The translations under genes and the position numbers were made by a program. A stretch of 64,000 nt of DNA, taken from Neofamilia massiliensis (lineage in GTDB: Bacteria; Bacillota; Clostridia; Tissierellales; Peptoniphilaceae). The DNA is taken from contig NZ_CYUJ01000003.1 of NCBI RefSeq assembly GCF_001299475.1, positions 252,409 to 316,408 of the forward strand, read 5' to 3'. Shown here in pieces: positions 3,452 through 34,247 of the stretch. The notes below the pieces were generated by a model that worked only from the letters and a program-made list of their open reading frames with translations, was not told the origin of the DNA and did no database searches. The stretch's first letter is position 1. Each line of letters begins with the position of its first letter.

Positions 3452-3467
3452 GTTTGGTAATTTTATT

Positions 3468-6844: not shown

Positions 6845-7978
6845 CTAAATAAAGCCTTTATTTGCTAAAATTTCTTTAGCCTTGTCAATGTTTGCTGAGC
6901 TTACCATTACCATAGGACCTGTACAACCCATGGCTGATTCTGCATAAATCTTTTCAGCCCAAAGTGTTTGAACTGCATTTTCTATTTCTAATATATCAAT
7001 GCCACCAATAGATTCTGTAACTATTTCTTTGTCTGGCATTGGGGCTTGTGGAAGTTCTTCCTTAGCCTTGTCATCTAGTGATTCTAAAATTTCATCTAAT
7101 TTAGCAGCTTTAGCTTTTTCATAGTAGGTCTTAGAAAGTTTAACTAGGTCTCCCTTTACGCTATCATAAGCATAGGAGATGGCATTTTTAATTACTGGAG
7201 CACCTGATGCCCTAGATACTATAAAAACTGCCTTGTCATAGCCCTCACCAACACTTGGTCCATAGCCATAACCTGTAGTTTCATAAAAACCACCTGAAGT
7301 ATAAGAAGCAAAGGTCTTGACTAAAACATTTCCTGTTAGAGAGTCGCAGACTAAAATATCTGGAACTCCTGCTACTAGGTCATTACCTCTTAGTAGTGAT
7401 CCACCGTCAGATCTTTTTGACTTAGCAAAGTTAATATCAAAGCCATTTTCCTTTAGTTCCTTAAGTTTTCTCTCTACAGTTACTGCCCCTTCGATATTTA
7501 AAATTCCAAGACTTGGATTTTCTATGCCATTGGCCTTAGCAACAACTATACCGTTAATGGCATTTAAAACCATAGCCTTTTCTCTTTTTGCATGGGTTGT
7601 ACCTGTAGTTGTAGCTAAAAATACTTCCTTGCCAAAGGCAGGGGTTATTATTTTTCCTACTGTTGAAACACCTATAGGAAATGGATAATGCATAGTAACA
7701 GCAGCTTGGATTTCTCCCTTGTTAAAAAGGTCTTCTAAAACCTTGGCAACCTCATCATCGCCACAGGCTTCATAAGATTCAAAGCCTTCTAAGGGTGTAC
7801 CTACAACAACTATATCAAATAAGGCTGACTTAGATGCAAGAATTGCCTCATTGACATTTTCTACTCCAAGTTCTGAGCCAAAATTAGTAACTGCAATTTT
7901 TATATTGTCTTTTAAGACGCCACTTTCTAAAGATTCTGCTAAATTCATAATTGAATGAGCTATTTTCTTTTTGTCCAT
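6845..7978 (-). CDS. grdD: Glycine reductase complex component C, alpha subunit GrdD
   Basis: GrdD is the phosphate acetyltransferase-like (PlsX-related) subunit of component C. This component converts the Se-carboxymethyl group delivered by GrdA into an acetyl thioester and then releases acetyl phosphate for ATP synthesis. The 377-residue protein has the family features: a glycine-rich GGSLLRGNDLVAGVPDILVCDSL-type region near 205-230, phosphate-binding segments, and a C-terminal SAMGCTGPMVMV containing a conserved cysteine near 355. It starts 3 bp after the grdC stop and is last in the operon, before a strong terminator. Confidence 0.95.
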   Translation of the reverse strand: MDKKKIAHSIMNLAESLESGVLKDNIKIAVTNFGSELGVENVNEAILASKSALFDIVVVGTPLEGFESYEACGDDEVAKVLEDLFNKGEIQAAVTMHYPFPIGVSTVGKIITPAFGKEVFLATTTGTTHAKREKAMVLNAINGIVVAKANGIENPSLGILNIEGAVTVERKLKELKENGFDINFAKSKRSDGGSLLRGNDLVAGVPDILVCDSLTGNVLVKTFASYTSGGFYETTGYGYGPSVGEGYDKAVFIVSRASGAPVIKNAISYAYDSVKGDLVKLSKTYYEKAKAAKLDEILESLDDKAKEELPQAPMPDKEIVTESIGGIDILEIENAVQTLWAEKIYAESAMGCTGPMVMVSSANIDKAKEILANKGFI

Positions 7979-7981
7979 GGC

Positions 7982-10863: not shown

Positions 10864-11334
10864 TTATCCTAACAAATCCTCTCTGATGTCTTGCATTTCT
10901 TCTACAATTTCATCTACATCAAGAACCATTTCCATCATTCCAATTTGTTCGTCATAAACATCTGGGTCAAATAGTTCTTTCATTTCGTCTTCTACTACGT
11001 GGTAGCAAGCTAGCCCTAATTCTACACCAGCAAGTGGTCCTGCAAAAGTTGGGTCTCCTGCTATACATGTCTCAGCTGCAAGACCTGCAGCCTCTGCCTC
11101 AGCTCCGCCTAAAATAACAACAATATTTTCTGGGCCATATTGCTCAGCAAAATCTTTTACTCTTTGTTGGTTTTCTAGGTCCATAGCTCCGGCACTAGTT
11201 CAGACAAAACATTCTGTAGCTGAAAATACTACCTCTGTGTTGTCTACAGTTTCAACACAAGCTTGAATAGCTGGTCCAGGTATACCGTCACGGTCACCTA
11301 TGATAACTATTTTCTTGTTTTCTAATAAGTTCAT
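10864..11334 (-). CDS. grdA: Glycine reductase component A (selenoprotein A) GrdA
   Basis: Selenoprotein A is the small carrier that accepts the carboxymethyl group on its selenocysteine as a selenoether and hands it to component C. Starting at ATG 11334, the frame reads [17 protein letters not shown] and meets TGA at 11202-11200 in [13 protein letters not shown], the hallmark GrdA redox motif (Cys42, Sec45). It then continues to a real stop at 10864, giving 156 residues, the usual size. It lies between grdE (35 bp) and grdB (14 bp). Truncated calling at the second ATG would lose the active site. Confidence 0.97.
11175..11198 (-). promoter_or_regulatory. Probable SECIS element of grdA
   Basis: Directly after the UGA, CTAGTGCC and GGACCTAG pair as CTAG/CTAG plus CC/GG with a 2x2 internal mismatch and loop GGAGCTAT. 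It is closer to the UGA and less canonical than the grdB element, so the exact structure is uncertain; the recoding itself is not. Confidence 0.5.
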
Positions 11335-11369
11335 AGTTCCTCTTCTTTCCTTTTCTAAATTCTAAATTT

Positions 11370-12659
11370 TTAAATAGTTCTTGCTGATTGTTTAGTGAAA
11401 CCAGTTTCGTTAGTAGCTCCAGTTATAGCTTGAAGCTCAACTTCTATAGTTCCATCTTCTCTTAATGACTTGTCATTACCACCAGCAATGATGTTTACAT
11501 ATTGGATATCTCCAATTACCTTGTCAAGTTTTGGAAGTTCAATAACTTCATTTGCATTACCTGCAGTTACACAAGCATTAGCAAGTGGGTCAGCGTCTGC
11601 TAGAGATTGGCTTAGTCCGTCTTGGCCTGCGTATTCGTCAGTTATTATAACTGTTTTAATATCCTTCTTTTCAATCTTCTTGCAGTTCATTATTAAGTCA
11701 GTATCTGGGTTACCAAATCCTTCTTGAGAAATAATTACTGCATCTGCACCTAAGAATTCTACTAATTTAGCAGTAGTATCTGATGATCTTTGCTTGTCCA
11801 TTAGATATACATTTTCATTAGTTATTACTACTCCTAGGAAGTTTAAAGTCTTTCCGTGTTCTTCGTAAAGTGATTTAATTACGTCGTTGTTTAAATGAAC
11901 GTAAGTTGGGTTTTTGTCACATGCTGATACACAGTTACCTGAGATTACTGCCCCGTCCATAATTTCTGTTGGATATAGATATGTTGGGATAATCTTCTTA
12001 GCATCTACTCCATAAACATAAGTGTCGTGTAGTAGACCTTGAGTTTGTAGCATATAAACATAAATTACTTTTGGAAGGTCTGGATACTCGTTAACTTGTT
12101 CAAGTAGAGGTTTAGTTTCATAAACCTTAACTTCTTCAGCTTCAAGATCCTTAGCTAGGCTTCCAATAAATCTAGTAATTTTTAAGCCAACCATTCTAAC
12201 TGAGTGTTCGTGGTTGTGTTGCTTAACTCCTTCTTTTGGATTAGTAGCTACTACTAATGAAACTAACTTAGAAAATGGAGTGTAGTCTGCTCCTGGTCCA
12301 GTCATGTCGATAATTCCTTCTTGGAAACCAACAATCTTACCAGTAGTCATTACTGCCATATTCTTTAAACAAATAGTCTTACCTGATCCTACGGTATCAA
12401 CTTTTCCTAAAACTCCTGGGAAAAATTCTCCGCCTTCTTTTTTATACCTTGGTTCAAGAACGTCTTTAACAGGTGTGATTCTTACACTTTCTCCTGGATG
12501 GACGATGTCAAAGTCTATATCTTCAAGATATTCGTCTTCTTCAAAGCCTGATTCTCGAACAAGGTCTTCTTTATTAAGGAAAAGAATGCCGTCTTCAATT
12601 TTTGATTCTTCAGCAAACTTAATATCCTTAATAAAGATTTCACCTAATTCTAGACGCAT
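11370..12659 (-). CDS. grdE: Glycine reductase component B proprotein GrdE (pyruvoyl subunits)
   Basis: GrdE is translated as one chain (429 residues here) and self-cleaves to give the alpha and beta subunits of protein B. The cysteine at the cleavage site becomes the pyruvoyl group that binds glycine. The processing site is visible at ISGNCVSACDKNPTYVH, with cleavage expected before C243, close to the position known in other GrdE proteins. It sits between trxA (15 bp) and grdA (35 bp). The substrate-specific partner GrdB, rather than sarcosine- or betaine-specific homologues, indicates glycine reductase. Confidence 0.96.
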   Translation of the reverse strand: MRLELGEIFIKDIKFAEESKIEDGILFLNKEDLVRESGFEEDEYLEDIDFDIVHPGESVRITPVKDVLEPRYKKEGGEFFPGVLGKVDTVGSGKTICLKNMAVMTTGKIVGFQEGIIDMTGPGADYTPFSKLVSLVVATNPKEGVKQHNHEHSVRMVGLKITRFIGSLAKDLEAEEVKVYETKPLLEQVNEYPDLPKVIYVYMLQTQGLLHDTYVYGVDAKKIIPTYLYPTEIMDGAVISGNCVSACDKNPTYVHLNNDVIKSLYEEHGKTLNFLGVVITNENVYLMDKQRSSDTTAKLVEFLGADAVIISQEGFGNPDTDLIMNCKKIEKKDIKTVIITDEYAGQDGLSQSLADADPLANACVTAGNANEVIELPKLDKVIGDIQYVNIIAGGNDKSLREDGTIEVELQAITGATNETGFTKQSARTI

Positions 12660-12674
12660 AGGTCCTCCTTTAAA

Positions 12675-12992
12675 TTAATAATATTTTTTGATCATAGCTT
12701 CTATATTTTCTATAGTAGCTGTGTCTGCATCTATAGTGTCAACTTTTTCGCCATCTTTAAACATTAACATTGTTGGTAGGCCAAGTACACCACATTTAAT
12801 AGCAGCTCTTCTAGCCTTAGTAATGTCTAGAGATGCAAATTTAATTTTGTCACCATATTTTTCTGCAAGTTCGTGAACACCTGGCATTAATGCCTTGCAT
12901 GGTTCACAAGATTCTGACCAAAAGTCTACAAACACATAACCTTCTGAATCATAAACCACTTCGTCAAAATTTTTCTTATCTAGTTCTAACAT
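12675..12992 (-). CDS. trxA: Thioredoxin of the glycine reductase system
   Basis: A 105-residue thioredoxin that passes electrons from TrxB to selenoprotein A. The active site is SCEPCKALMPG with C29 and C32. The standard WCGPC is replaced by a CEPC form, with W25 four residues ahead of C29, a variant typical of thioredoxins encoded in grd operons. It lies 11 bp after trxB and 15 bp before grdE, so its job is clear from position. Confidence 0.95.
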   Translation of the reverse strand: MLELDKKNFDEVVYDSEGYVFVDFWSESCEPCKALMPGVHELAEKYGDKIKFASLDITKARRAAIKCGVLGLPTMLMFKDGEKVDTIDADTATIENIEAMIKKYY

Positions 12993-13003
12993 TTTTTCCT
13001 CCT

Positions 13004-13945
13004 TTACTTTAATGTCTTTATTTCTTTTTCTATAGTAACAGCTGCTATTGATCCATCACTAGCTGCTGTAACCACCTGTCTTAGTGGAGTGTCTCTAACA
13101 TCTCCAATTGCATAAACTAGTGGAATATTAGTTCTCATTAGTTCATCAGTAATTATATTACCATTATCAGTCATTTCAACCTGACCTTTGAAAATTTCAG
13201 ATTGTGGGTCAGTTCCTACAAAGACAAATACACCCATTAGGCCGTCGTCTTCGTCAGCTAAATATTCACTTTCTTCTCCTGTTTTGTTGTCAACAAGGAT
13301 TAGTTTATTTACTAGAGGATCGCCATGGATTTCTTTAATAGATGTGTTGTACATAAATTCTAGGCCTTCAGTATTGTCAGCCTCTTCTTTTACAACAGCG
13401 TCACATCTTAGAACATCTCTTCTTACAACAATAGTAACTTTTCTAGCAAATTTCTTTAAATAAATTGCCTCTTCAACAGCAGAGTTTCCTCCACCTACAA
13501 CAAAGACTTCAAAGTCTTCGAAGAAGTTAGCATCACATGTTGCACAGTAAGATACTCCCTTACCTGAAAATTCTTTTTCTCCAGGTACATTAAGCTTTCT
13601 AGGGCTGGCACCAGTTGCAATTATAACTGATTTACCTTCAACTACATCTCCATTGCCAAGAGTAATTTTTTTTGGTTGGCTTTTTAAATCAACTTCAACT
13701 ACATCTTCAAAAACAAAGTCACAGCCAAAGTGTTCAGCTTGCTTCCTCATTCTTTCAGTTAAAGTTTTTCCAGATTCATGTTCTCCAACTAGAGATCCTG
13801 GATAGTTTTCAATGGAATCAGTAATTCCAATTTGGCCACCTATTGAACCCTTTTCAATTATAAGAGTGTTTAGTCTAGCCCTGCCTGCATAAAGGCCAGC
13901 TGACAGTCCTCCTGGACCTCCTCCAATAATTACTAAATCATACAT
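13004..13945 (-). CDS. trxB: Thioredoxin reductase
   Basis: This 313-residue FAD/NADPH-dependent flavoprotein reduces TrxA. It has the FAD-binding GGGPGG (8-13), the redox pair C134-A-T-C137, the NADPH-site VVGGGNSAVEEA (about 152-163) and the C-terminal YAIGDVRDTPLRQVVTA FAD motif. Length is normal for the low-molecular-weight type. It follows grdX by 13 bp and precedes trxA by 11 bp, forming the electron-supply end of the grd operon. Confidence 0.95.
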   Translation of the reverse strand: MYDLVIIGGGPGGLSAGLYAGRARLNTLIIEKGSIGGQIGITDSIENYPGSLVGEHESGKTLTERMRKQAEHFGCDFVFEDVVEVDLKSQPKKITLGNGDVVEGKSVIIATGASPRKLNVPGEKEFSGKGVSYCATCDANFFEDFEVFVVGGGNSAVEEAIYLKKFARKVTIVVRRDVLRCDAVVKEEADNTEGLEFMYNTSIKEIHGDPLVNKLILVDNKTGEESEYLADEDDGLMGVFVFVGTDPQSEIFKGQVEMTDNGNIITDELMRTNIPLVYAIGDVRDTPLRQVVTAASDGSIAAVTIEKEIKTLK

Positions 13946-13958
13946 GGTAAAAACCTCC

Positions 13959-14327
13959 TTAAAGTATTATGTTTTCTAAAGTTTCGCTAATTAAAGTGTA
14001 GTCGATAAACTCTAGATCTTTTTCAATATCGTCATTAATTTCCTTGACCTTATCTGTTTTTATAATTCTCTCTACCTTTATAATAGAATTTTCTATTAAC
14101 TCTAAAGACTCAAGGTCTATAGAATCTCCTCCTTCTTCAATAACAACTGACCTAAAGAGAGTTGTTGTTGGTGGAATATTTCCGTAGAGAGGATGGGTTA
14201 CGACCTTATAGTTTTTGTGAACATAGTCTCTCACCCTAGTAAAAACATCTAAGTAAGAGCCGTCTATAAATTCCACTGGAATTTTTTTATAGGCTAAAAA
14301 ACTCTTATTGTTAGTTATTAATTTCAA
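13959..14327 (-). CDS. grdX: GrdX family protein
   Basis: A 122-residue protein of unknown biochemical role that is consistently the first gene of glycine and betaine reductase operons. The sequence begins MKLITNNKSFLAYKKIPVEF and includes THPLYGNIPPTTTLFRS near residues 40-58; no membrane segment, signal peptide or metal motif is evident. It opens the operon here, 13 bp before trxB, with a divergent selA 323 bp upstream. The name rests on size, opening sequence and position. Confidence 0.88.
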   Translation of the reverse strand: MKLITNNKSFLAYKKIPVEFIDGSYLDVFTRVRDYVHKNYKVVTHPLYGNIPPTTTLFRSVVIEEGGDSIDLESLELIENSIIKVERIIKTDKVKEINDDIEKDLEFIDYTLISETLENIIL

Positions 14328-25943: not shown

Positions 25944-25977
25944 AAAAAAACCAACTACAAGTAAGTCTTATAGTTGG
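25944..25977 (-). terminator. Original selC terminator, now separated from selC by the element
   Basis: On the minus strand CCAACTA...TAGTTGG is followed by TTTTTTTATA. It lies 2 bp beyond the leftover tRNA 3'-end repeat, exactly where the terminator of the uninterrupted tRNA-Sec gene would be. Confidence 0.8.
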
Positions 25978-25979
25978 TC

Positions 25980-25997
25980 ATGGCGAAGACGAGTGGG
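25980..25997 (-). repeat. Left attachment site: leftover tRNA-Sec 3' end
   Basis: ATGGCGAAGACGAGTGGG is identical to 34152-34169, the 3' end of the tRNA-Sec gene (CCA, acceptor strand and part of the T stem) plus one base. Identity ends abruptly on both sides, as expected for the core duplicated by site-specific integration. Confidence 0.95.
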
Positions 25998-26099
25998 GAC
26001 AGTATAAGCTTTTTATAGCTTTTACAACGTGTATTTATAGCCATTTCTATTTATATAAATATAGCTTTTTCTATCAATTTAAGACAGATTAAACTCTTT

Positions 26100-26120
26100 T
26101 AGTATCAAAATAGTATCAAA
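26100..26120 (+). repeat. Left arm-type integrase binding repeats
   Basis: TAGTATCAAA occurs twice with an 11-bp pitch (26100 and 26111). The same pair occurs in the same orientation and pitch at 34092/34103 near the other end, as expected for arm sites of a tyrosine recombinase. Confidence 0.7.
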
Positions 26121-26215
26121 AAAAGGATCCCTAGGAGATCTAATTTGTTGGCCAATAACACTGGCCGTTCTTTAAGATTATATATATTATACCATATCAG
26201 CCTAAATAATACAGG

Positions 26216-27193
26216 CTATTTCCCTTGATTCCTGATTAAAAACTTTTTCATAGCCTTTTGCTCCATTTCAATATTATTAATAGCTAGATATGACGTAAAA
26301 TCAGAAACCTTATTAGTCTTTGATCTAAGACTGTCAAAATCATACGGAGATCCATAATAAGAAATAGGATCTAAGAACTCATTATAATAATTAATAAAAT
26401 ACTTACAGGTCCTAAGCTTTTTAAAAGCCCTGTCCCTAATAGATTTAATATCTTTAATAGGACAACCAAGTAAATCAGCAATTTCTTTCATTCCCTTGCC
26501 ATAGGTTCCTATACCAAATAAATTACATAGTAAAATATATTCAATTTCAGATAGCTGGCCCCTAGTTTCCTTTCTAATTTCCTGAGATGCAAGGTTGTTT
26601 ATTAAATCATCTTCAAAGCTTGCTTCCTCATCTTCTATCAGATCAACAAGCAAATAATCTCCCTCTAATGTTTCTATAGGCATATCTAAAGAAACTAGCC
26701 TATCTTTAAAGGGCAATATGCTCTTAAGGCTTTCAACAGATATTTTCATAGTGTAGGCTATTTCCTCTATAGTAGGCTCTCTTAATAATTTCTTTTCTAG
26801 GTCTCCCTGTATCTTTTTATAGTCATTTAAAATCTTAAAGGCATAGGCAGGGATCCTAACAGTATTATCTTTATTTTCAATGGCCCTATAAATAGCCGAT
26901 TTAATTTTCCAACTAGCAAAAGTAGAAAACTTGTTACCCTTTCTATAATCAAAACTTTCAACCGCTTCAACAAGTCCTATATTTCCCTCTTGAATTAGAT
27001 CCATAGCTGTTAAACTCTTAGAATGAAAACTATTGGCAATACTAACAACCAACTTTAAATTAGCTTTAATGAAAATATCTCTAGCCTCAACATTTCCCTT
27101 TTCAATTTCCTTAGCCAATTCAATCTCTTCATCTGCTGTTAGAACATTTATTTTTTTGATCTCATTAATATAAGCTTGATATAAATTATCCAT
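26216..27193 (-). CDS. Sigma-70 family RNA polymerase sigma factor encoded by the element
   Basis: A 325-residue protein with the primary-sigma-like order. Region 1.2/2.1 is LTADEEIELAKEIEKGNVEA with ANLKLVVSIANSF; region 2.2 is LTAMDLIQEGNIGLVEAVE; region 2.3-2.4 is GNKFSTFASWKIKSAIYRAIE with DNTVRIPAY; region 3 covers about 125-170; region 4 is KGMKEIADLLGCPIKDIKSI near 240-265. A roughly 55-residue tail of no known type follows. It is intact and last in the capsid operon, 107 bp after the capsid gene. It may direct RNA polymerase to element or helper-phage promoters; this role is inference. A sigma of this class on so small an element is unusual. Confidence 0.88.
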   Translation of the reverse strand: MDNLYQAYINEIKKINVLTADEEIELAKEIEKGNVEARDIFIKANLKLVVSIANSFHSKSLTAMDLIQEGNIGLVEAVESFDYRKGNKFSTFASWKIKSAIYRAIENKDNTVRIPAYAFKILNDYKKIQGDLEKKLLREPTIEEIAYTMKISVESLKSILPFKDRLVSLDMPIETLEGDYLLVDLIEDEEASFEDDLINNLASQEIRKETRGQLSEIEYILLCNLFGIGTYGKGMKEIADLLGCPIKDIKSIRDRAFKKLRTCKYFINYYNEFLDPISYYGSPYDFDSLRSKTNKVSDFTSYLAINNIEMEQKAMKKFLIRNQGK

Positions 27194-27299
27194 AAAAGCC
27201 CCCTTGATATGTAAAAGGCCACATATTTTTATTATATGCAGCCATTTATAAAAAAACGTAATGTTAAGAAATTTTATATGTTTAGAGAATTTTTATTTT

Positions 27300-28139
27300 T
27301 TAGATCTGTACTACTTGAGAATAAATAGCAGTCTTTTTATTGTCTAAGATAAAAGTATCAAAGACTATCCTACCTTCAACCAATGCTCCACTGATTCCAG
27401 GTGGATTTTCATGGATTCTATAAGACTCTAATTTTTGTACAAATACAATAGCACTTGGATGTACTAAAGCAAAGCCAAAATTATCAGGGCAAACAGATTC
27501 AGAAAGCCTAACAACAGTCAAGCCGTCAACCATAGCTATAACCCCTTTAATCTTCATATCTTGAGCTATATCTGTACTCATTAGAAAATCTTTATTCTGT
27601 TTTAAAAGCATATAAGTCTTAGCATTAACTAATAGTACCCTACCATAAGTAGGAACATTAGCCTCATCTAACACACTATTGGCCTTTAAAATTTCATCAT
27701 AAATATTTTCCTTAGTAAGCTTTAAAGCCTCAGCCTTAGTTCCAGCACCTGCTAAAATCTTAGCGATAGCACTATGCTCACTATGTGGGATAACAACTTC
27801 CCTAATTTGCCTAGCCAATGCAGAAGCAGCTTGAAGATTTCTTTTAGTTTCATCTTCATCTAGCCTGTCAATAGCAAAAGTAAAAGACTTGTCATTATTA
27901 ATAATAAACTCTTCAGTAGACCCGCCAAGATTTTCAATTTTTCCATACCTAGAAAAACCGTACTTACCTTCGCCGTCTCTATCATAATTATTAAGTTGAG
28001 CGGTATTAATCTTATACACTTTTACAGTATTGGCACCAGTAAAATCAAAGTCCCTATTAGAAATTAGGGCCATTTTACTTTCAGTAGTAAACTGCTCATC
28101 AACATAAGGCAAATATTGTGTAGCTAAATCAATAGCCAT
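27300..28139 (-). CDS. Phage major capsid protein
   Basis: A 279-residue protein whose opening MAIDLATQYLPYVDEQFTTE and following FDFTGANTVKVYKI match a family of major capsid proteins common in phages of Firmicutes. SFTFAIDRLDEDETKRNLQA near residues 88-110 is another hallmark, and the C-terminal half (AIVFVQKLESYRIHENPPG) fits an HK97-type fold. It lies 13 bp after the scaffold gene. It implies the element builds its own shell rather than remodelling a helper capsid. Length is normal, with no truncation. Confidence 0.85.
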   Translation of the reverse strand: MAIDLATQYLPYVDEQFTTESKMALISNRDFDFTGANTVKVYKINTAQLNNYDRDGEGKYGFSRYGKIENLGGSTEEFIINNDKSFTFAIDRLDEDETKRNLQAASALARQIREVVIPHSEHSAIAKILAGAGTKAEALKLTKENIYDEILKANSVLDEANVPTYGRVLLVNAKTYMLLKQNKDFLMSTDIAQDMKIKGVIAMVDGLTVVRLSESVCPDNFGFALVHPSAIVFVQKLESYRIHENPPGISGALVEGRIVFDTFILDNKKTAIYSQVVQI

Positions 28140-28152
28140 TTTTCACCTTCCT

Positions 28153-28557
28153 TTACAAAACAGTAGGAGGTTTAAAAGCTTCTTTTATAGGGTCTCCCTT
28201 TACAGAAGATCCAACTTCAGGAATGTGAGGAATATATCTATTATCTTCAGAACCTTTCACGCTGTCAGTGATCTCCTTAACCCTTTTAACAAAAGTATCA
28301 ACATCTTCCTTAGTTTCTCCATTAAAGAGATCTAAAAACTCAATTGATAGCCCTGATTCAGAAAGGGCATCCCTACAATCAGCCTTTAACTCCCTTTCAA
28401 GCAATAATCTTTCCCTTTCCTCTAAGTCCTCATTGCTAGCATCTTTTTCCCTAGCAACTCTTTTTTGAACAATAGAGTTAACCTCATCTTGAGTAAATAA
28501 CTTTTCGCCACTTTCGTGGTCTTGTCCTAATTCTTGATTAGTTTCTTTTGCTTCCAT
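28153..28557 (-). CDS. Phage capsid scaffolding-like protein (DUF4355-type)
   Basis: A 134-residue, highly charged protein with LFTQDEVNSIVQKRVAREKD at 20-39 followed by a predicted long helix EDLEERERLLLERELKADCR. This is the layout of phage scaffold or capsid-assembly proteins that sit directly before the major capsid gene. No protease domain is visible. It is the first gene of the late module, about 48 bp downstream of a strong promoter. It is shorter than most homologues in full phages (about 180-220 residues), which may relate to a smaller shell; that last point is speculation. Confidence 0.75.
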   Translation of the reverse strand: MEAKETNQELGQDHESGEKLFTQDEVNSIVQKRVAREKDASNEDLEERERLLLERELKADCRDALSESGLSIEFLDLFNGETKEDVDTFVKRVKEITDSVKGSEDNRYIPHIPEVGSSVKGDPIKEAFKPPTVL

Positions 28558-28604
28558 TATAAAACCCCTTTATAAAGTATTTCCTGCATCATAGCAGTAA
28601 CTTA

Positions 28605-28633
28605 ATTATACTATATATTGATATATTTTTCAA
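28605..28633 (-). promoter_or_regulatory. Promoter of the element's late (capsid-sigma) operon
   Basis: On the minus strand TTGAAA and TATAAT are separated by exactly 17 bp. It lies between the early-module terminator and the scaffold gene, so capsid and sigma genes have their own host-type promoter. Confidence 0.75.
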
Positions 28634-28712
28634 TTTTAAAGGATTTTCAACTATATGTAGTATGTGTCATTATATAGGAATAATAGCACTTAATAAAATA
28701 CATAACATAAAA

Positions 28713-28740
28713 TAAAAAAAGGCCACTAATAAGCGACCTT
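28713..28740 (-). terminator. Terminator ending the element's early operon
   Basis: On the minus strand AGGTCGC pairs with GTGGCCT (two G-U pairs) and is followed by TTTTTTTATTTTA. It starts at the stop codon of the 74-residue gene and separates early and late modules. Confidence 0.8.
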
Positions 28741-28964
28741 TAAATATCGTCAAAAATTACAACTGACGACTTAATATTAAATTGTTTCTTCAAACTATCA
28801 ATCTGCAATAAGGCATCTTCCTCACTATCGCAAACAATTTGCCTATAGATCCCGTTAATAGTAACATCTATAGTCGCCTTGTCCTTAGAAACAATAGCCA
28901 GCAAGCTAACATTAGCCTCATTAAACCTATTTTCAAGTTCGATCAGCTTTCTTTTAAAACTCAT
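28740..28964 (-). CDS. Hypothetical protein, element early module
   Basis: A 74-residue soluble protein of unknown function. It looks like a helix (SFKRKLIELENRFNEANVSL) followed by beta strands (KATIDVTINGIYRQIVCDSE) and ends acidic. It has no signal peptide or metal motif. It is the last gene before the early terminator, 7 bp after the 80-residue gene. I do not recognise the family. Small genes at this place in satellites often act on the helper phage or host; nothing in the sequence shows that here. Confidence 0.65.
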   Translation of the reverse strand: MSFKRKLIELENRFNEANVSLLAIVSKDKATIDVTINGIYRQIVCDSEEDALLQIDSLKKQFNIKSSVVIFDDI

Positions 28965-28971
28965 ATTTAAC

Positions 28972-29214
28972 CTACTTTACTAACTTAAGCTTATCAGCAC
29001 TATAATTAATTTTTTCCTCAAGATCATTCAACCTTTCTTCCAGCTCAGCCTTTTCAAAGCCTACAAGCCTAATATTACATAAATAGCCCAAGGCCCTAGC
29101 CTTACTCTCATCAATTTCATCATTAGCAAGATCAATAATGATCCTTTGCAAGAACCTATTAACACCTGCAATAGTATTCAATCTATTAGAATATTTTTTC
29201 CCCAATAAAAACAC
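28972..29214 (-). CDS. Hypothetical helical protein, element early module
   Basis: An 80-residue, mostly helical protein. Residues 10-50 resemble the short helical proteins often found next to phage replication genes (RFLQRIIIDLANDEIDESKA then RALGYLCNIRLVGFE), and the tail is a coiled coil (KAELEERLNDLEEKINYSAD). A clear AGGAGG lies just upstream. It may bind a partner through the coiled coil. Function unknown; the neighbours are two unknown small genes. Confidence 0.7.
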   Translation of the reverse strand: MFLLGKKYSNRLNTIAGVNRFLQRIIIDLANDEIDESKARALGYLCNIRLVGFEKAELEERLNDLEEKINYSADKLKLVK

Positions 29215-29299
29215 CTCCTAACCAAGTAACCATCAAGAAGCTTAGGACTATAAGCCTACAATTAATAAACCTATAGCCCTAAAAAACATACAAAAATTT

Positions 29300-29488
29300 T
29301 TACTTGTAAATATCTACATCATCATGTTCATACCTCTTAGGCTTAGTACAATAATAAACAACAGCAACAGCCTTGCCCTTAATATTTAAAGTGTCAATCT
29401 TATAAACCTCACCCATAGTCAAATTTTTTAAAATAAAATTATTTTCCCAAGAATCAGGCTTATCTAAATTAACCATAACATACTTCAT
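29300..29488 (-). CDS. Hypothetical protein, element early module
   Basis: A 62-residue protein beginning MKYVMVNLDKPDSWENNFIL with a beta-rich middle (YKIDTLNIKGKAVAVVYYC) and a charged end. Its start overlaps the stop of the 78-residue gene by one base, so the two are translationally coupled and likely real. I do not recognise a family. Confidence 0.6.
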   Translation of the reverse strand: MKYVMVNLDKPDSWENNFILKNLTMGEVYKIDTLNIKGKAVAVVYYCTKPKRYEHDDVDIYK

Positions 29489-29724
29489 TAGCGAAGCCCT
29501 AAAGTGAAACCATCTTCAAGATACGATCTTTCCCTAAGACCTTGAAGTCTACCACATTCAAAAATCATCATAAGAAGCCAATTAACTTCTGTCTCGTCAT
29601 CTAATGAAATATCAATACAGTTTAAAGATCCTCGAACAATCAAAGCAAAGTCCTCAGGACTCTTTAAAACTATTCCACCTTCTGTCGCAATTTCTCTAAT
29701 ATCTTTTTCGTTTATAAATAACAT
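29488..29724 (-). CDS. Hypothetical acidic protein, element early module
   Basis: A 78-residue acidic protein (MLFINEKDIREIATEGGIVL..., with ETEVNWLLMMIFECGRLQGL near 45-65). It has no transmembrane or DNA-binding motif. An AAAGGATAAA ribosome binding site precedes it, and its stop codon overlaps the next start. Function unknown. Confidence 0.6.
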   Translation of the reverse strand: MLFINEKDIREIATEGGIVLKSPEDFALIVRGSLNCIDISLDDETEVNWLLMMIFECGRLQGLRERSYLEDGFTLGLR

Positions 29725-29753
29725 TTTAAATTTATCCTTTCTTTTAGTTGGGG

Positions 29754-30023
29754 TTATATTTGTGGCTTATCATATGCAACGCTATTTCCCAAATAACATA
29801 TTCCGCCTGAATTTCTTATTTTTTCGTAGCTATCCTCTGTACCTTCATACAATATAAATACGTTATAATATGGATCTTCACCATAAGCTACTGCATTATA
29901 TTTAATGCTTAATATCTCCGTGCCGTAATCTTGCAAATAGTTTAATGTTCCATTTACATGACTTTCTATTTCGTCATCTTCAAGAAAACTTAAAACCCAT
30001 ATTTGTTTATATTTCTTTTCCAT
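29754..30023 (-). CDS. Hypothetical protein, element early module
   Basis: An 89-residue protein with an alternating strand/helix pattern (KQIWVLSFLEDDEIESHVNG then TLNYLQDYGTEILSIKYNAV), like a small alpha/beta domain with acidic surface. An AAAGGATAAG ribosome binding site lies before the ATG. It is the first of the small genes after a repeat-rich 184-bp gap. No recognised family. Confidence 0.6.
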   Translation of the reverse strand: MEKKYKQIWVLSFLEDDEIESHVNGTLNYLQDYGTEILSIKYNAVAYGEDPYYNVFILYEGTEDSYEKIRNSGGICYLGNSVAYDKPQI

Positions 30024-30063
30024 TTACTTATCCTTTCTTTTTTCTATACTCCTATATTAGAGT

Positions 30064-30209
30064 GTTAACTAGCTAATGTTGGCTATTTTACTTTACTTCA
30101 CTAGCTTACACAATGTTAGCTAGTAACATGCTACTTTATACTAGAATACATTTTTATGTTAACTAGTACATATATATATATTTAGCCATTTATAACTAGA
30201 ATACATTTT
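30064..30209. repeat. Repeat-rich non-coding segment: possible replication origin iterons
   Basis: Three related copies of GTTA(A/G)CTAG (30064, 30115, 30158) and a 15-bp direct repeat ACTAGAATACATTTT (30140-30154 and 30195-30209) lie in an A+T-rich 184-bp gap beside the ATPase gene. Repeats of this kind next to a replication ATPase are typical of origins; an operator cluster is the alternative. Confidence 0.5.
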
Positions 30210-31557
30210 ATTTATTGTCTATAGAGAACTTAACTTCTTCTTGAATAGGCACTACAAAATTTTCAAGATCTTCAGGCCAGCCCCAATAATAATGGCCTTG
30301 ATACTCATATCTCTTAGACTTTATGTTTAATTCCTTTTTGGCTTCCTCTAGTGTCCTGTTTGATATTCCTTCAGCTTCAGCCTTTTGTACAATTGTCTCT
30401 TTTAGCATTGGCCCGTCTTCTAACAATTCATAAAGAAAATCCTTTGCCTTATCTTTTTTAGGTGCTGCTCTTCTTACTTCAAAATCATTCATTATTTCAT
30501 CTGCTGATAAATTACTATATCCGTCAAAAACAATTCCGCCCGCCTTTGGATCAATATGGAACTGTATTGTTTTTATTTTTCTTATATCTGCAACGTTAGT
30601 TTTTACTGCACATAAATTTATTAATGAACTTTCCCTATCTCTAGCAAGGGCCAAAACATTCCTAGCAGCGGCAACTGTATCTATTGATCCAGTAACCCTA
30701 TTAATGGCTTTTGCTCCAGTGTTTTTATTTGTATGAGCCAGCAATATAACTGTCATATCGTATTTTTCACAAAGGTAAAACAAAGGATTGAGGGCCTCTC
30801 TCATACTAGCTTGATCATTACCTTTAGTATTAGGTGGTAAAAATGCCTGTAAAGTGTCAAAGATTATAATATCTGGCTTATGTTCTATTATAAAATTTTC
30901 CAGTTCTTTATCTTTATAGTTAGTTGATTTTTCATCTTCTGACATCATAATTATATTTTTATAATTAGGCTTTTCTTTAAAACCCTCTAACCTGTTTTTT
31001 AACATTGAAGGACTATCCTCAGCACTTTGGTATATAATTTTATACTCTTTAAAATCTAATCCATAGAATATAGAATTGGGGTTATCTATATAACCACCAC
31101 TTGACAATACTGCTGCAAGATTCAAGGATAAATAAGTCTTACCTGTTCCAGGTTCTGAAGCTATAACAGTTATACAGCCTTTAGGGATCCATGGAAACCA
31201 TATCCATTCTACATCTTTAGCCTCTATATCTTCAAAAGATATAGCCTTATACTTAGATTTAACTGGCCTAGGCTTATTCTTATTCACTTTCTTGCAACTT
31301 GAAATTGCCCTGCTAATATAGTCATCAATATCATCAACATCATTAAAAGTCTTATAAGGCTTAGAATTAACAATAATTCTTTTCATCTGTTCCCCGTCCT
31401 TGGCCGTCCAATAAGCTAAAAAATTGCTATAAGCCTCTTTATAAGATTCAATTGATGAAAATTCAAGCTTAGAAGAATTGTAAAGGCCATTAAAATAATC
31501 TTTATCATCTGCCTTTATTTGCTCAATAAGTTTAAAATCTTCTGTAATTAAATTCAT
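30208..31557 (-). CDS. RecA-fold AAA ATPase (RepA/DnaB-like), probable element replication protein
   Basis: A 449-residue protein. Residues 1-105 form a short helical N-terminal region; a RecA-like ATPase core follows with Walker A ASEPGTGKT (133-141), Walker B DIIIFDTLQAF, and AHTNKNTGAKAINRVTGS carrying the sensor region. The final 90 residues look like a winged helix (ETIVQKAEAEGISNRTLEEA). This resembles RepA-type hexameric helicases (AAA_25) of plasmids, phages and islands. It probably unwinds DNA during element replication. There is no primase domain, so host or helper primase would be needed. Confidence 0.85.
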   Translation of the reverse strand: MNLITEDFKLIEQIKADDKDYFNGLYNSSKLEFSSIESYKEAYSNFLAYWTAKDGEQMKRIIVNSKPYKTFNDVDDIDDYISRAISSCKKVNKNKPRPVKSKYKAISFEDIEAKDVEWIWFPWIPKGCITVIASEPGTGKTYLSLNLAAVLSSGGYIDNPNSIFYGLDFKEYKIIYQSAEDSPSMLKNRLEGFKEKPNYKNIIMMSEDEKSTNYKDKELENFIIEHKPDIIIFDTLQAFLPPNTKGNDQASMREALNPLFYLCEKYDMTVILLAHTNKNTGAKAINRVTGSIDTVAAARNVLALARDRESSLINLCAVKTNVADIRKIKTIQFHIDPKAGGIVFDGYSNLSADEIMNDFEVRRAAPKKDKAKDFLYELLEDGPMLKETIVQKAEAEGISNRTLEEAKKELNIKSKRYEYQGHYYWGWPEDLENFVVPIQEEVKFSIDNK

Positions 31558-31599
31558 TCAAAAATTCCTCACCTCTTTTCTAATAAATATGCTATAATT

Positions 31600-31677
31600 A
31601 GAAAGGATATTAATTTATCCTTTCTTTAGACCATGGCTTTTAGTTGGGGAACTTTTATAGGCCATGGTCCTTTTTTG
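31600..31677 (+). other. Twin hairpins with plus-strand T-run between two minus-strand genes
   Basis: A 9-bp perfect hairpin (AGAAAGGAT/ATCCTTTCT) is followed by GACCATGGC/GCCATGGTC with CTTTTTTG on the plus strand. Its terminator polarity is opposite to the flanking genes. It may be a small antisense RNA or a barrier to plus-strand transcription; TATAAT at 31593 lacks a good -35. Confidence 0.45.
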
Positions 31678-31681
31678 TTTC

Positions 31682-31870
31682 CTACTGCCTAACATCATCA
31701 TCTTTTAAATTAAACCTTTCTTTTAAATAGTCTATAGGGACCCTACCATTAACAGTCATATAACCTTGATCCTCAAGCTCACGATTTAAGGCTCTAATAA
31801 TCTGATATCCCTTACCTTGCTTGACGCTTAACATATCCATAACGTCATCAATAGTCGCTAATCTTGACAT
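31682..31870 (-). CDS. Excisionase-like small DNA-binding protein
   Basis: A 62-residue winged-helix-like protein: MSRLATIDDVMDMLSVKQGK then GYQIIRALNRELEDQGYMTV with NGRVPIDYLKERF. This pattern is seen in small Xis/HTH proteins of Gram-positive integrative elements. It overlaps the Cro-like gene by 13 bp, so they are co-expressed. A recombination directionality role is inferred from family and context. Confidence 0.75.
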   Translation of the reverse strand: MSRLATIDDVMDMLSVKQGKGYQIIRALNRELEDQGYMTVNGRVPIDYLKERFNLKDDDVRQ

Positions 31871-32082
31871 TTTACACCTCCAGTATTAAAAAATATCTCC
31901 CCAATTTCAATAGCAGTAAGCTTATATCTCTCACTTATAGCTACTATTTCTTCTTGTCTAAATTGTGCATTATTATTAATTTTTAAGTTTAACCTAGATG
32001 CACTTATGCCAATAGCTTTCGCTAGGTCTACTTGAGTATCTCCACACTCAACCATTTTAGCCTTTAATTTGTTTGGATTCAC
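31858..32082 (-). CDS. Cro-like XRE-family regulator
   Basis: A 74-residue helix-turn-helix protein: NPNKLKAKMVECGDTQVDLA with KAIGISASRLNLKINNN forming the HTH, and a short C-terminal helix ending in CQD. It is the first gene of the early minus-strand operon, divergent from the CI-like repressor across a 145-bp switch region. By analogy with phage it would counteract the repressor. Confidence 0.82.
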   Translation of the reverse strand: MNPNKLKAKMVECGDTQVDLAKAIGISASRLNLKINNNAQFRQEEIVAISERYKLTAIEIGEIFFNTGGVKCQD

Positions 32083-32102
32083 TTTTACACCTCCTTTCCT
32101 GT

Positions 32103-32193
32103 TTTACGGTATTTACTTTTTACTGTATCCGTTAATTATTATTATAAGTGTTTTTTTACTGTTGTCAATAGTTTTTATTGCAAATTTACGGAA
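32103..32193. promoter_or_regulatory. Switch operator array (four TTTAC[G/T]G sites)
   Basis: TTTACGGTA (32103), TTTACTGTA (32119), TTTACTGTT (32155) and TTTACGGAA (32185) share a 7-bp core in the same orientation. The third and fourth lie inside the spacers of the two divergent promoters, so repressor binding would block both. Confidence 0.65.
32141..32168 (-). promoter_or_regulatory. Early (lytic-direction) promoter of the element
   Basis: Minus-strand TTGACA (perfect) and TATAAT (perfect) are separated by 16 bp. It fires toward the Cro-like, excisionase-like and ATPase genes and overlaps operator TTTACTGTT. Confidence 0.8.
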
Positions 32194-32205
32194 AAAGTTT
32201 ATAAT
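32178..32205 (+). promoter_or_regulatory. Repressor promoter of the element
   Basis: Plus-strand TTGCAA and TATAAT are separated by 16 bp, with operator TTTACGGAA in the spacer. The transcript leader is short, with GAGGAGG just ahead of the repressor ATG. Confidence 0.7.
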
Positions 32206-32227
32206 TGTTTTATGAGGAGGTTTTAAA

Positions 32228-32923
32228 ATGTGCTTTTCAACAAAATTAAAGAAATTAAGAACTGAAAAAGAGCTAACACAAAAAGAGTTATCTAGTGAAT
32301 TAAAAAAGCTTTATGATATTAATTTTTCAAATAGAAATATTTCCTATTATGAAAGAGAAGAAAATGGGGCTACCATTCCCGATTTAAAAATAGTAGAAGC
32401 TTTAGCTAACTATTTTAATGTTTCTACTAACTACCTTCTAGGAATTAGTGAAAAATCCCAAGAAGAAGAAATTGTAAAAAGGTTAACTGAGAAAACTGAT
32501 GACAATACTATTAAATGGTATGAAGACGATCCATCAAAGAACTACAATGAGTTTAATGACAGATTGCTTGAAAATTATTCTAGGGTTTTCAACAGGAACT
32601 ATTTTCTCCAAAAACTAAGTGAAATAGTAGATATTGATGCTGAGAATATATGTTATAACGTATACTACACTGATATTTCAGGTAATTTCTATGTACTAAT
32701 AGATATTGAAACTGTTATTCATCTTTATTATGTGGAGACTGACATTGAATTTGATGCAATGACAGAATTCTATTGCAGTGATTACAAAATAATAAAAATA
32801 GGAGATTCAAGCAAAATTCCAGCCATTAATGATCTATTAGAATCAGCGACAATTGATGATAATCAAAAAAACAGAACATCAACATTAAATAGCTTACTAG
32901 ACAATTTAAACAATATAGACTAA
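32228..32923 (+). CDS. CI-like XRE repressor of the element
   Basis: A 231-residue protein. The N-terminal helix-turn-helix (residues 5-70) reads KLKKLRTEKELTQKELSSEL with ISYYEREENGATIPDLKIVE and YFNVSTNYLLGIS. The C-terminal half is acidic and beta-rich with no Ser/Lys LexA-type peptidase motif, so induction by RecA self-cleavage is unlikely; an antirepressor from a helper phage is one possibility. It diverges from the Cro-like gene and is 31 bp upstream of the integrase, with which it is probably co-transcribed. Confidence 0.85.
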   Translation: MCFSTKLKKLRTEKELTQKELSSELKKLYDINFSNRNISYYEREENGATIPDLKIVEALANYFNVSTNYLLGISEKSQEEEIVKRLTEKTDDNTIKWYEDDPSKNYNEFNDRLLENYSRVFNRNYFLQKLSEIVDIDAENICYNVYYTDISGNFYVLIDIETVIHLYYVETDIEFDAMTEFYCSDYKIIKIGDSSKIPAINDLLESATIDDNQKNRTSTLNSLLDNLNNID

Positions 32924-32954
32924 CCCCAACAGTCAAAGAAAGGAATGAAATAAT

Positions 32955-34013
32955 ATGCCAGCATACAAAGACACCAATAACAACACATGGTACTGTAAAT
33001 TTTATTATGAAGACTACAAGGGAGAAACAAAGACAAAATTTAAAAGAGGCTTTAAAAGAAAGAAAGACGCCCAAGAATTTGAAAGGAATTTCTTACAGTC
33101 AAGCCAGTTTCAACCTGAAATCCCATTCAAGGATTTTATAGAGATCTATAAGAAAGACACCTATCCCCAATTAAGAGAGCATACAATACAAAATAAAAAA
33201 TATAGATTAGTTAGAATCCTGCCATACTTTGAAGATATACCACTAAAAGACATAACATCAATAGATATAGTAAAGTGGCAAAATGAAATGATAAAACTAG
33301 GCTTTAAAAGCTCATATATAAACAACCTACAAAATCAACTATCAGCAATATTAAATCATGCAGTAAAATTCTATGGCCTAAAAGAAAATCCAGCAAGAAA
33401 AGCAGGCAGGGTTAACATACCTGATGAAATTCCCTCTAAAATGAGATTCTGGACCTTTGACGAATATAGCCATGTAATAGCATTAATAAACGATTTAAAA
33501 GCAAAAACGGCTATAAATCTCTTGTACTGGACAGGTATGAGAAAAGGAGAGTTGTTCGCTCTTACTTGGGCAGATATAGATCTAGAAAACAAAACAATAA
33601 ACATAAACAAGTCATATCAAAGACTAAAAGGAAAAGACGTAATAACACCAACAAAGACCTATGAAAACAGGCTAATAATGATCCCTGATACAACAGTAAA
33701 TCAATTACTAGAATATAAAGCCAAATGTTATGACACTAGCCCTGACGCACCAGTTTTCCAATGGAATAAAAGATTTATAGAAAATGGAATAAAACAAGGC
33801 TCACAAGATGCAGGAATAGAAAGAATCCACGTTCACGGCCTAAGACATAGCCACGCAAGCTATTTAATAAATCAAAAAGTTAATATAGTCCTAATATCAA
33901 AAAGACTAGGCCACAAAGACACATCAATAACACTAGACACCTATAGCCACTTCTTCCCTACTGAAGAAATAAACCTAATGGAGAACATAAACAAACAACT
34001 AGAAAATAAATAA
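32955..34013 (+). CDS. int: Tyrosine-type integrase of the element
   Basis: A 352-residue site-specific recombinase of the phage integrase family. An N-terminal arm-binding domain (AYKDTNNNTWYCKFYYEDYK) is followed by a SAM-like core-binding domain and the catalytic domain with R196 (GMRKGEL), H294-R297 (HGLRH), H320 (LGHKD) and nucleophile Y330 (DTYSH). All catalytic residues are intact. It lies beside the attachment site in the tRNA-Sec gene, as is normal for tRNA-targeting elements, and ends at a strong bidirectional hairpin. Confidence 0.95.
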   Translation: MPAYKDTNNNTWYCKFYYEDYKGETKTKFKRGFKRKKDAQEFERNFLQSSQFQPEIPFKDFIEIYKKDTYPQLREHTIQNKKYRLVRILPYFEDIPLKDITSIDIVKWQNEMIKLGFKSSYINNLQNQLSAILNHAVKFYGLKENPARKAGRVNIPDEIPSKMRFWTFDEYSHVIALINDLKAKTAINLLYWTGMRKGELFALTWADIDLENKTININKSYQRLKGKDVITPTKTYENRLIMIPDTTVNQLLEYKAKCYDTSPDAPVFQWNKRFIENGIKQGSQDAGIERIHVHGLRHSHASYLINQKVNIVLISKRLGHKDTSITLDTYSHFFPTEEINLMENINKQLENK

Positions 34014-34029
34014 AACAAACACAACAAAA

Positions 34030-34086
34030 AGAAGCATATTGCATTCAGCCAGATTATAATTGATTGGCCTGCAATATGCTTCTTTT
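34030..34086. terminator. Bidirectional terminator of int and new selC terminator
   Basis: AGAAGCATATTGCA and TGCAATATGCTTCT form a 14-bp perfect stem. TTTT follows on the plus strand, and TTTTTGTTG follows on the minus strand. It lies about 66 bp beyond the tRNA-Sec 3' end, so it can replace the terminator displaced by integration. Confidence 0.85.
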
Positions 34087-34091
34087 AATTT

Positions 34092-34111
34092 TAGTATCAA
34101 ATTAGTATCAC
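34092..34111 (+). repeat. Right arm-type integrase binding repeats
   Basis: TAGTATCAAA (34092) and TAGTATCAC (34103) with an 11-bp pitch match the pair at the left end of the element in sequence, pitch and orientation. Confidence 0.7.
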
Positions 34112-34151
34112 TTATTTTTTTAATGGCTAATTTTCAACGTTTAAATACATT

Positions 34152-34169
34152 ATGGCGAAGACGAGTGGG
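34152..34169 (-). repeat. Right attachment site within tRNA-Sec 3' end
   Basis: The 18-bp copy of the core that forms the functional 3' end of the tRNA gene. The element supplies these bases, so integration preserves the tRNA. Confidence 0.95.
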
Positions 34170-34247
34170 AATCGAACCCACCTAAGAGGAACTCCTCTCA
34201 CAACGGTTTTGAAGACCGCAGAGCACACCAGAAACTCATTCGCCTTC
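34153..34247 (-). tRNA. selC: tRNA-Sec (anticodon TCA)
   Basis: The minus strand folds as a 95-nt selenocysteine tRNA. An 8-bp acceptor stem (GAAGGCGA with TCGTCTTC, one G-U pair) is followed by a G discriminator and encoded CCA. The anticodon loop CTTCAAA has anticodon at 34212-34210, with a long variable arm (AGAGGA/TCCTCT) and T arm GTGGG-TTCGATT-CCCAC. It decodes the UGA codons in grdA and grdB. It lies only 6 bp after the LysR stop codon, so it is co-transcribed with that gene or uses a promoter inside its end. Its 3' end is the integration site of the neighbouring element. Confidence 0.97.

Follow-up and report, generated by a model that had tools for sequence, protein, structure and literature searches.

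A probable phage satellite carrying its own capsid and scaffold genes is integrated at the tRNA-Sec gene of Neofamilia massiliensis

The DNA analysed here is a 64,000-nucleotide stretch of the Neofamilia massiliensis genome (contig NZ_CYUJ01000003.1, positions 252,409 to 316,408), called the window below. It contains an integrated element with a unit size of 8,172 bp whose right end is selC, the gene for tRNA-Sec. The genes of the element and of its relatives indicate that it is very likely a phage satellite. It is probably of the phage-inducible chromosomal island (PICI) type and carries its own shell-building pair, a major capsid protein and a scaffolding protein. The capsid, scaffold, and sigma factor genes are what make the element interesting, while the selC site is a minor point, one more tRNA gene serving as a landing site.

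Gene content of the element

The element encodes predicted integration, regulation, and replication functions together with a capsid gene and a scaffold gene. From the integrase side the order is integrase, CI-like repressor, Cro-like repressor, phrog_989 protein, replication protein, five small open reading frames (ORFs), scaffold, capsid, and sigma-70 factor. All of the named ORFs are uninterrupted. A preliminary description of this DNA, made from the sequence alone, had reported an intact integrase, and the Pfam domains of the gene at 32955-34013 agree with this; it had overlooked the capsid, scaffold, and sigma factor genes. The genes are as follows, in order of window position.

26216-27193, minus strand: sigma-70 family factor, 325 amino acids, with regions 1.2, 2, 3, and 4 (Pfam region 2, E=1.1e-16; phrog_351, E=2.2e-58)
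27300-28139, minus strand: major capsid protein, 279 amino acids, HK97 fold (phrog_422, E=1e-53; structure model)
28153-28557, minus strand: capsid scaffolding protein, 134 amino acids, gp46/DUF4355 type (PF14265, gp46, E=7.7e-8; phrog_172, E=5.3e-9)
28740-28964, minus strand: small ORF, 74 amino acids, without a significant family match
28972-29214, minus strand: 80-amino-acid two-helix protein common to some satellites (homologues; model)
29300-29488, minus strand: small ORF, 62 amino acids, with weak family matches
29488-29724, minus strand: small ORF, 78 amino acids, without a family match
29754-30023, minus strand: small ORF, 89 amino acids, with weak PHROGs matches
30208-31557, minus strand: replication protein, 449 amino acids, an AAA_25 or DnaB-like helicase with primase-helicase relatives (PF13481, E=8.4e-22; phrog_239, E=6.2e-14)
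31682-31870, minus strand: phrog_989 protein (E=1.9e-21), putative excisionase or regulator from its position
31858-32082, minus strand: Cro-like repressor (DUF739, E=5.9e-8; HTH_3, E=2.2e-5)
32228-32923, plus strand: CI-like repressor, divergent from the Cro-like gene (HTH_19, E=3e-7; HTH_3, E=6.3e-7)
32955-34013, plus strand: tyrosine integrase with an arm-binding domain (Phage_integrase, E=4.6e-24; PF14657, E=8.6e-10)

Pfam was run on all 13 of these ORFs and PHROGs on 10, and neither recognised a terminase, portal, connector, or tail gene. Hidden Markov models (HMMs) for the large terminase subunit (TerL), the portal, and the minor head protein also gave no match near the capsid gene of the window. 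The model of the capsid protein (predicted local distance difference test score, pLDDT, 77.8) has the HK97 fold. Its best solved structural match is the capsid of Mycobacterium phage Che8 (Z=18.8, 4.7 Å over 240 residues), and other matches include the capsid of EcCI2, a capsid-forming PICI (cf-PICI; Z=15.4), and encapsulins (Z about 15).

The 80-amino-acid protein is 74% identical in a related element (L022), and 17 matches were found including the window, two of which are the same element. It is modelled as two helices (pLDDT 80.6, 16-row alignment), with no significant fold match in BFVD (best E 0.65) and no significant sequence match in PDB (best E 0.13). It is perhaps a packaging or assembly helper.

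Relatives and their packaging genes

Most relatives of the capsid gene lie in loci that lack recognised packaging genes. Scanning genome contigs with satellite capsid proteins gave 101 relatives, of which the best 80 were kept; four are the places of L022-L025, which are described with the family relatives below. This sample leans to satellites, because the query was built from satellites. The control was a set of 79 loci fetched with an alignment of phage-type capsid proteins. Loci were judged with HMMs built for terminase, portal, minor head, integrase, scaffold, and sigma factor, and only where at least 3.5 kb was available upstream and at least 1 kb downstream. In the satellite-type set 62 of the best 80 loci have such flanks, and 60 of the 62 have no TerL, portal, or minor-head match. 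The two exceptions are L121, with the small terminase subunit (TerS), TerL, and portal, and L075, with a minor head protein. Of the controls, 56 of 79 have such flanks, and 47 of the 56 have a match (TerL in 43, portal in 39, minor head in 35). Raising the flank requirement to 6 kb and 3 kb leaves 43 genome loci, with a total of one TerL, one portal, and one minor-head match.

The nine controls without any of the three matches (9/56) show how far the models reach. The ORF patterns of L187, L195, L204, and L209 suggest phages whose genes have diverged, and the HMMs therefore miss some packaging genes. L168, L170, L175, and L201 look satellite-like, and L224 was placed in neither group. The models were seeded mainly from phages of this capsid type, and other terminases could escape them. 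When 72 of the 93 large ORFs were scanned with Pfam, the matches listed (25 of 57 families) included at least one to Terminase_3, from L121. The 21 ORFs outside the scan comprise 11 already recognised as sigma factors, five integrases, and five others.

The 60 loci share much of the layout of the window element. The integrase is found in 51, the scaffold in 50, the sigma factor in 24, and an AAA_25-type gene in 22; in 50 of the 60 the scaffold gene immediately precedes the capsid gene, with a median gap of 17 bp. The hosts of these loci together with L075 and L121 (62 in all) are Lachnospiraceae (31), Oscillospiraceae (9), Peptoniphilaceae (4), Eubacteriaceae (3), Erysipelotrichaceae (2), Clostridiaceae (2), and Veillonellaceae (1), with 10 in no named family. 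In viral contigs a scan with a single capsid sequence found no relative, while an alignment-based scan found 14 loci. None of the 14 has a TerL, portal, or minor-head match, and 11 of them are too short by the flank rule. In 10 of the 80 genome loci and four of the 14 viral loci, the capsid gene was missing from the length-based ORF calls, either because a competing ORF overlapped it or because the contig end truncated it, and was placed by translated search.

A few relatives have single head or packaging genes. In L121, from Acetobacterium fimetarium, the TerS, TerL, and portal genes lie between the capsid and sigma genes (11261-14276), and this locus may be a bridge to the cf-PICIs. In L232 the capsid gene is followed by TerL (6001-8475), with no portal match, and its capsid protein falls inside the satellite clade described below. 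The circular contig L090 encodes a neck or tail-completion protein (7007-7687; phrog_222, E=1.7e-39). Three IMG/VR contigs (L167, L168, and L170) have a scaffold, a related capsid protein, and a sigma factor without TerL or portal matches. A 654-amino-acid protein of L167 resembles a tape measure protein by eye, and L168 has an ORF of equal length. Separately, Dulem virus 31 (L163, PP511318.1), a 35.8-kb record, is filed under Microviridae; this taxonomy looks wrong, because the record has terminase, portal, sheath, and tape-measure genes.

Capsid ancestry and scaffold length

The capsid proteins of the satellites are clustered by ancestry. A first tree of 101 rows had long branches (L244-L246 and L160), and its outgroup was not coherent. 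The second tree, made without an outgroup, has 81 rows, 54 from satellites and 27 from phages, and omits L244-L246, 14 short sequences (including L160 and L154), and three unclear ones. On this tree the satellite and phage labels require three changes, versus 23 in shuffles, and none of 500 shuffles was as low. The main clade (support 100/99) holds every satellite except L167 and L170, plus L232, which has a phage label owing to its TerL. The capsid protein of the window groups with those of other members of its host family in a clade of four rows (100/99). L121 is nested in the satellite clade as sister to L073, which has no packaging-gene matches. These capsid sequences seem best explained by one main origin that has persisted for a long time, with a second, small lineage beside it.

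The scaffold proteins of the satellites are shorter than those of the phages. The scaffold was taken as the ORF just upstream of the capsid gene, picked by its charged content. The median is 155 amino acids in satellites (51/54) and 191 in phages (25/30), with a Mann-Whitney p of 3.5e-7 that is overstated because the rows share ancestry. The scaffold of the window has 134 amino acids. The capsid proteins have similar medians, 281 amino acids in satellites and 275 in phages. A shorter satellite scaffold is what one would expect if a smaller shell size were set by the scaffold.

Mobility of the family

Circular or head-to-tail forms of the family exist, and these do not imply packaged DNA. Terminal redundancy or tandem repetition was seen in six of the 33 contigs or stretches tested; five of the six are circular and one is a tandem repeat, with units of 7.6-9.0 kb:

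circular contigs: L090, 8,333 bp; L153, 8,966 bp; L154, 7,611 bp; L157, 8,706 bp; L158, 8,555 bp
tandem contig: L151, an 8,513-bp unit repeated at 100% over 4,933 bp

Read as circles, all six have the scaffold and capsid genes and none has a TerL, portal, or minor-head match. The integrase model matches five of the six, and L154 has a different, invertase-like integrase. Direct repeats of at least 16 bp between the integrase side and the far side were found in 26 of the 45 loci with room for them, while in the reversed control 16 bp was attained in a single case. At 11 distinct places (12 rows, since L025 and L112 are one place) there is overlap between the repeat and a tRNA gene predicted by ARAGORN. 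The targets at these places are genes for tRNAs of Thr, Ser, Gly, Lys, Pro, and Arg, with units of 8.0-9.8 kb.

Integration at selC

The ends of the window element and a related genome without it show that it was inserted at selC. An exact 18-bp direct repeat, ATGGCGAAGACGAGTGGG, copies the 3' end of selC and bounds the element, and its start-to-start distance gives the unit size. With up to three mismatches allowed, the repeat still has only two matches in the 64 kb; shuffled sequences had a mean of 0.01 matches, and two matches were reached in none of 100 shuffles. The selC gene, the sole tRNA gene in the window by ARAGORN, is complete at the right end of the element. Integration at selC within an 18-bp repeat spanning about 8.2 kb, and reconstitution of the tRNA gene by the element, had both been proposed in the preliminary description, and both are upheld by these results. 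The G+C content is 31.4% in the element versus 33.7% and 34.7% in the stretches either side. The features of the two ends are as follows.

25944-25977, minus strand: original selC terminator hairpin, now cut off from selC by the element
25980-25997: left attachment repeat, an exact 18-bp copy of the selC 3' end
26097-26118, plus strand: putative integrase arm sites, left; AGTATCA twice, in a 22-nt repeat 95% identical to 34089-34110
34027-34086: bidirectional terminator-like hairpin in the gap between the integrase gene and selC, with 17-bp perfect arms; putative role
34089-34110, plus strand: putative integrase arm sites, right end; 22-nt repeat with an AGTATCA pair
34152-34169: right attachment repeat, exact 18 bp, within selC
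34153-34247, minus strand: selC, tRNA-Sec, anticodon TCA, intact (ARAGORN)

The empty site was sought in a genus sample of three genomes, the window's own included. The other two (G001 and G002, 73% and 64% complete) are from the same genus and belong to other species. The query was the two flanks of the window joined at the 18 bp (1,620 bases), containing an isochorismatase gene, the hairpin, selC, and a lysR gene. In G001 the joined flanks align over their full length in one piece, with 74.5% identity over 1,649 columns, and by eye an equivalent hairpin adjoins selC in the aligned region. In G002 the alignment covers only the selC-lysR side (620-1620, 67%). An empty site in the same species was not seen in this sample, in which G001 and G002 are both incomplete and of other species. 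The preliminary description had made its case depend on an empty site with selC and the hairpin contiguous in a related genome, and the case stands because G001 shows one.

Near each end there is a pair of AGTATCA motifs whose starts are separated by 11 bp (26101/26112 and 34093/34104), and the two pairs account for four of the 11 occurrences in the window on both strands. They look like integrase arm sites, since the integrase carries the arm-binding domain PF14657, which we take to be linked to the Tn916 integrase. The hairpin at 34027-34086 folds on the selC strand with -29.1 kcal/mol, versus -12.0 in shuffles (z=-6.25). This element-borne hairpin may replace the terminator left behind at 25944-25977.

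The host uses selenium, as had been noted in the preliminary description, and the fate of the element does not appear to be tied to this. A GrdA gene with one in-frame TGA is found at about 10882-11325 of the window, and the selD and yedF genes are within a few kb of selC. The suggested link between the element and selenium metabolism was set aside, because the tRNA gene is intact with or without the insertion and related elements occupy other sites. ARAGORN found no tRNA-Sec in the stretches of 94 related loci, many of which are short. The preliminary description had suggested looking for homologous integrases at selC; the closest integrases (54-55% identity) have no tRNA gene within about 1.5 kb either side. 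In the host family, 48 tRNA-Sec matches of at least 62 bits were among the matches listed, and 30 were scanned with about 1.5 kb each side. The other 18 include the selC of the window itself, and G002 was examined separately. Only one of the 30 scanned loci is near a partial integrase gene (L273 in G071), about 1 kb away and not at the selC 3' end. The same locus has CRISPR-like repeats by eye near selC, at about 2370-2490.

Comparison with known satellites

Capsid genes are already known from phage satellites, namely Gram-negative PICIs, SaPIbov5, and cf-PICIs. The window element shares several features listed for Gram-positive PICIs (PMC6092414), namely an integrase with its own attachment sites, divergent CI/Cro-like regulators, and a predicted replication module. 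Gram-positive PICIs are described there as about 15 kb and without phage structural genes, whereas this element is 8,172 bp and has major capsid and scaffold genes. Size is a weak criterion, given that the average PICI is put elsewhere at 9.5 kb (PMC10803314). EfCIV583 is likewise reported to have no recognisable capsid or scaffold gene (PMC6893505).

SaPIbov5 and the other cos-type Staphylococcus aureus pathogenicity islands (SaPIs) are Gram-positive satellites that also encode a phage-capsid homologue (PMC8569155, PMC5052747). Their homologue, Ccm, redirects head size (PMC8569155, PMC5052747). SaPIs are about 14 kb, and Ccm is no substitute for the phage capsid protein (PMC5052747). The window element differs in its 8.2-kb unit, its sigma factor, and its full-length capsid protein, which comes with a separate scaffold of its own. 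Gram-negative PICIs such as EcCICFT073 and PmCI172 are small satellites with a capsid gene as well, but their hosts are different. A capsid gene is reported in 21 of 29 reference Gram-negative PICIs (PMC10111431), and PmCI172, which encodes a capsid protein, forms small heads (PMC6092414). In EcCICFT073 the capsid gene is accompanied by a head decoration gene, with no scaffold mentioned in the excerpt, and the DNA enters phage-sized heads (PMC6092414).

The cf-PICIs have a satellite-encoded shell too, and the relative L121 also has TerS, TerL, and portal genes. They are defined as encoding all head and packaging functions (PMC10690885), and they average 14 kb (PMC10803314), compared with 8.2 kb here. 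Of the genes in that definition the window element has the capsid gene, while portal, connectors, and the large and small terminase were not recognised. Prophages of the phrog_422 capsid type have a homologous capsid (Streptococcus phage Javan246, 45%; phage phi OH2, 41%) and a scaffold gene upstream. Their genomes, by contrast, measure about 38 kb and include genes for terminase, portal or minor capsid protein, tail, and lysis; the window element lacks recognised terminase, portal, and tail genes near its capsid gene and is not a complete prophage by this comparison. The element is thus outside both the PICIs and the cf-PICIs as the cited papers define them.

The combination looks new: capsid and dedicated scaffold genes, a sigma factor, no recognised packaging genes, and a size of 8-9 kb in one main Clostridia lineage. 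No Clostridia satellite family with capsid and scaffold genes was found in the literature searched, and a prior description is possible in the founding cf-PICI or SatelliteFinder papers. A Clostridia-wide lineage that keeps these genes alters the picture of Gram-positive PICIs as lacking structural genes (PMC6092414). It also suggests that anaerobes harbour a layer of phage parasitism of which no description was found in the same literature.

Proposed life cycle and alternatives

The gene content suggests a cycle that would depend on a helper phage. The helper would relieve repression, the integrase and the small phrog_989 protein would excise a circle, and the helicase-type protein would replicate it. 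The sigma factor would then activate the capsid operon or the late genes of the helper, a role that we put forward tentatively. The satellite capsid protein and the short scaffold would nucleate a shell on the helper portal. This shell would suit the small genome and crowd out helper heads, while portal, terminase, tail, and lysis functions would be borrowed from the helper. Judged from the genes, the chances that the satellite forms its own small shell are about even.

The wider lineage may be read in the same way, although we consider this account somewhat less likely to be right than wrong. Clostridia satellites would have long kept the scaffold and capsid genes with a shortened scaffold, forming small shells of their own and using the portal, terminase, and tail of a helper. 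The single head-gene pickups (TerL in L232, minor head in L075, neck in L090, and TerS-TerL-portal in L121) would then be living intermediates between capsid-stealing and capsid-forming PICIs. The lineage is a natural series for asking how satellites acquire their own heads, and if it is true that the short scaffold sets shell size, it offers a simple two-gene system for head-size control.

Several observations weigh against a satellite that builds its own shell. A helper was not found: the genome of the window has no SPP1-type portal or Terminase_3 match, other terminase and portal families not having been searched, and a Terminase_3 match is present in three of the six other satellite hosts of the family (G123, G105, and G108). 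The sigma model matches only 24 of the 60 loci. The satellites are not strictly one clade, since a branch with all of them on one side occurs in 0% of 200 bootstrap trees of the 81-row alignment, a bootstrap that had not settled. The scaffolds of L167 and L170 are of phage length (193 and 186 amino acids), shared ancestry inflates the significance of the length difference, and circular forms need not be packaged DNA. Among described satellites, EcCICFT073 is packaged into phage-sized heads in spite of its capsid gene (PMC6092414), PICI capsid genes are reported to be unnecessary for transfer (PMC10111431), and Ccm is unable to replace the phage capsid protein (PMC5052747).

In an alternative that is less probable and still deserves weight, the capsid pair serves for interference or backup. 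The satellite proteins would co-assemble with or poison the helper capsid, and the satellite would travel in helper shells. Ccm, a capsid-protein homologue, takes the pentamers of SaPIbov5 procapsids (PMC8569155), and transfer independent of the PICI capsid genes (PMC10111431) is in line with such a role. However, Ccm is of the fused-scaffold type with a shortened N-terminal domain (PMC5052747), while the capsid protein here is full length and a separate scaffold gene is directly upstream in 50 of the 60 loci.

It is unlikely that the lineage consists of reduced cf-PICIs that formerly had portal and terminase genes and have since lost them. The TerS-TerL-portal genes of L121 and the TerL of L232 would fit such a history, as would the statement that cf-PICI capsids form three clades within phages (PMC11389934). 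However, L121 is nested in the satellite clade and its sister L073 has no such matches, and by this nesting a late gain fits at least as well as many losses. A decayed prophage that chanced to keep its capsid and scaffold genes is very improbable. The capsid family is that of tailed phages, and L025, with a truncated capsid protein and no scaffold match, shows that decay happens. Against this, the short layout without packaging-gene matches recurs in 60 loci, capsid ancestry is clustered, repeats are present in 26 of 45 loci, circular forms are found, and the ORFs of the window are uninterrupted. That the HK97-fold protein forms an encapsulin-like compartment rather than a virus shell is scarcely credible: the structural matches do include encapsulins (Z about 15) and Linocin_M18 matches weakly (E=0.003, below the cut-off), but the phage family match is far stronger (phrog_422, 1e-53), a phage capsid protein heads the structural matches (Z=18.8), and the gene directly upstream encodes a phage scaffold.

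Relatives within Peptoniphilaceae

Elements of similar build are found in other genomes of the host family. A capsid-protein search of 130 family genomes gave matches in 16, nine of them close (at least 45% identity), the window's own included. Six close relatives besides the window (L022, L023, L024, L025, L028, and L029, each in a different genome) lie in elements with the same kind of layout of integrase, CI-like, replication, scaffold, capsid, and sigma genes, except for the scaffold match absent from L025. Three of the six adjoin a gene read by eye as guaA, and two are beside tRNA-Thr. L026 and L027 have matches to the minor-head model, and we read them as phages from this and further genes.

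The replication and sigma genes of these relatives vary. Where scanned, the replication genes of L022 and L023 are DnaD/DnaC-like, unlike the helicase type of the window. The sigma factor is shorter in five family relatives, with 203-256 amino acids versus 325 in the window, and the C-termini look related in an alignment. A phrog_36-type regulator lies just before the sigma gene in L022, L023, and L025.

Other integrase genes were seen near or apart from these elements. Upstream of the satellite in L022 there are two nearby integrase genes (387-4756), as though elements were in tandem. The genome of the window has another integrase elsewhere (L066, C3:20000-39900), 40% identical and with a phrog_989-like gene adjoining; by eye, a guaA gene lies upstream of it and mobilisation-like genes lie nearby. 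L065 (G092:C464) has an integrase, a CI-like gene, a phrog_989-like gene, and several unassigned ORFs with no capsid match, and it is a possible relative with another late module.

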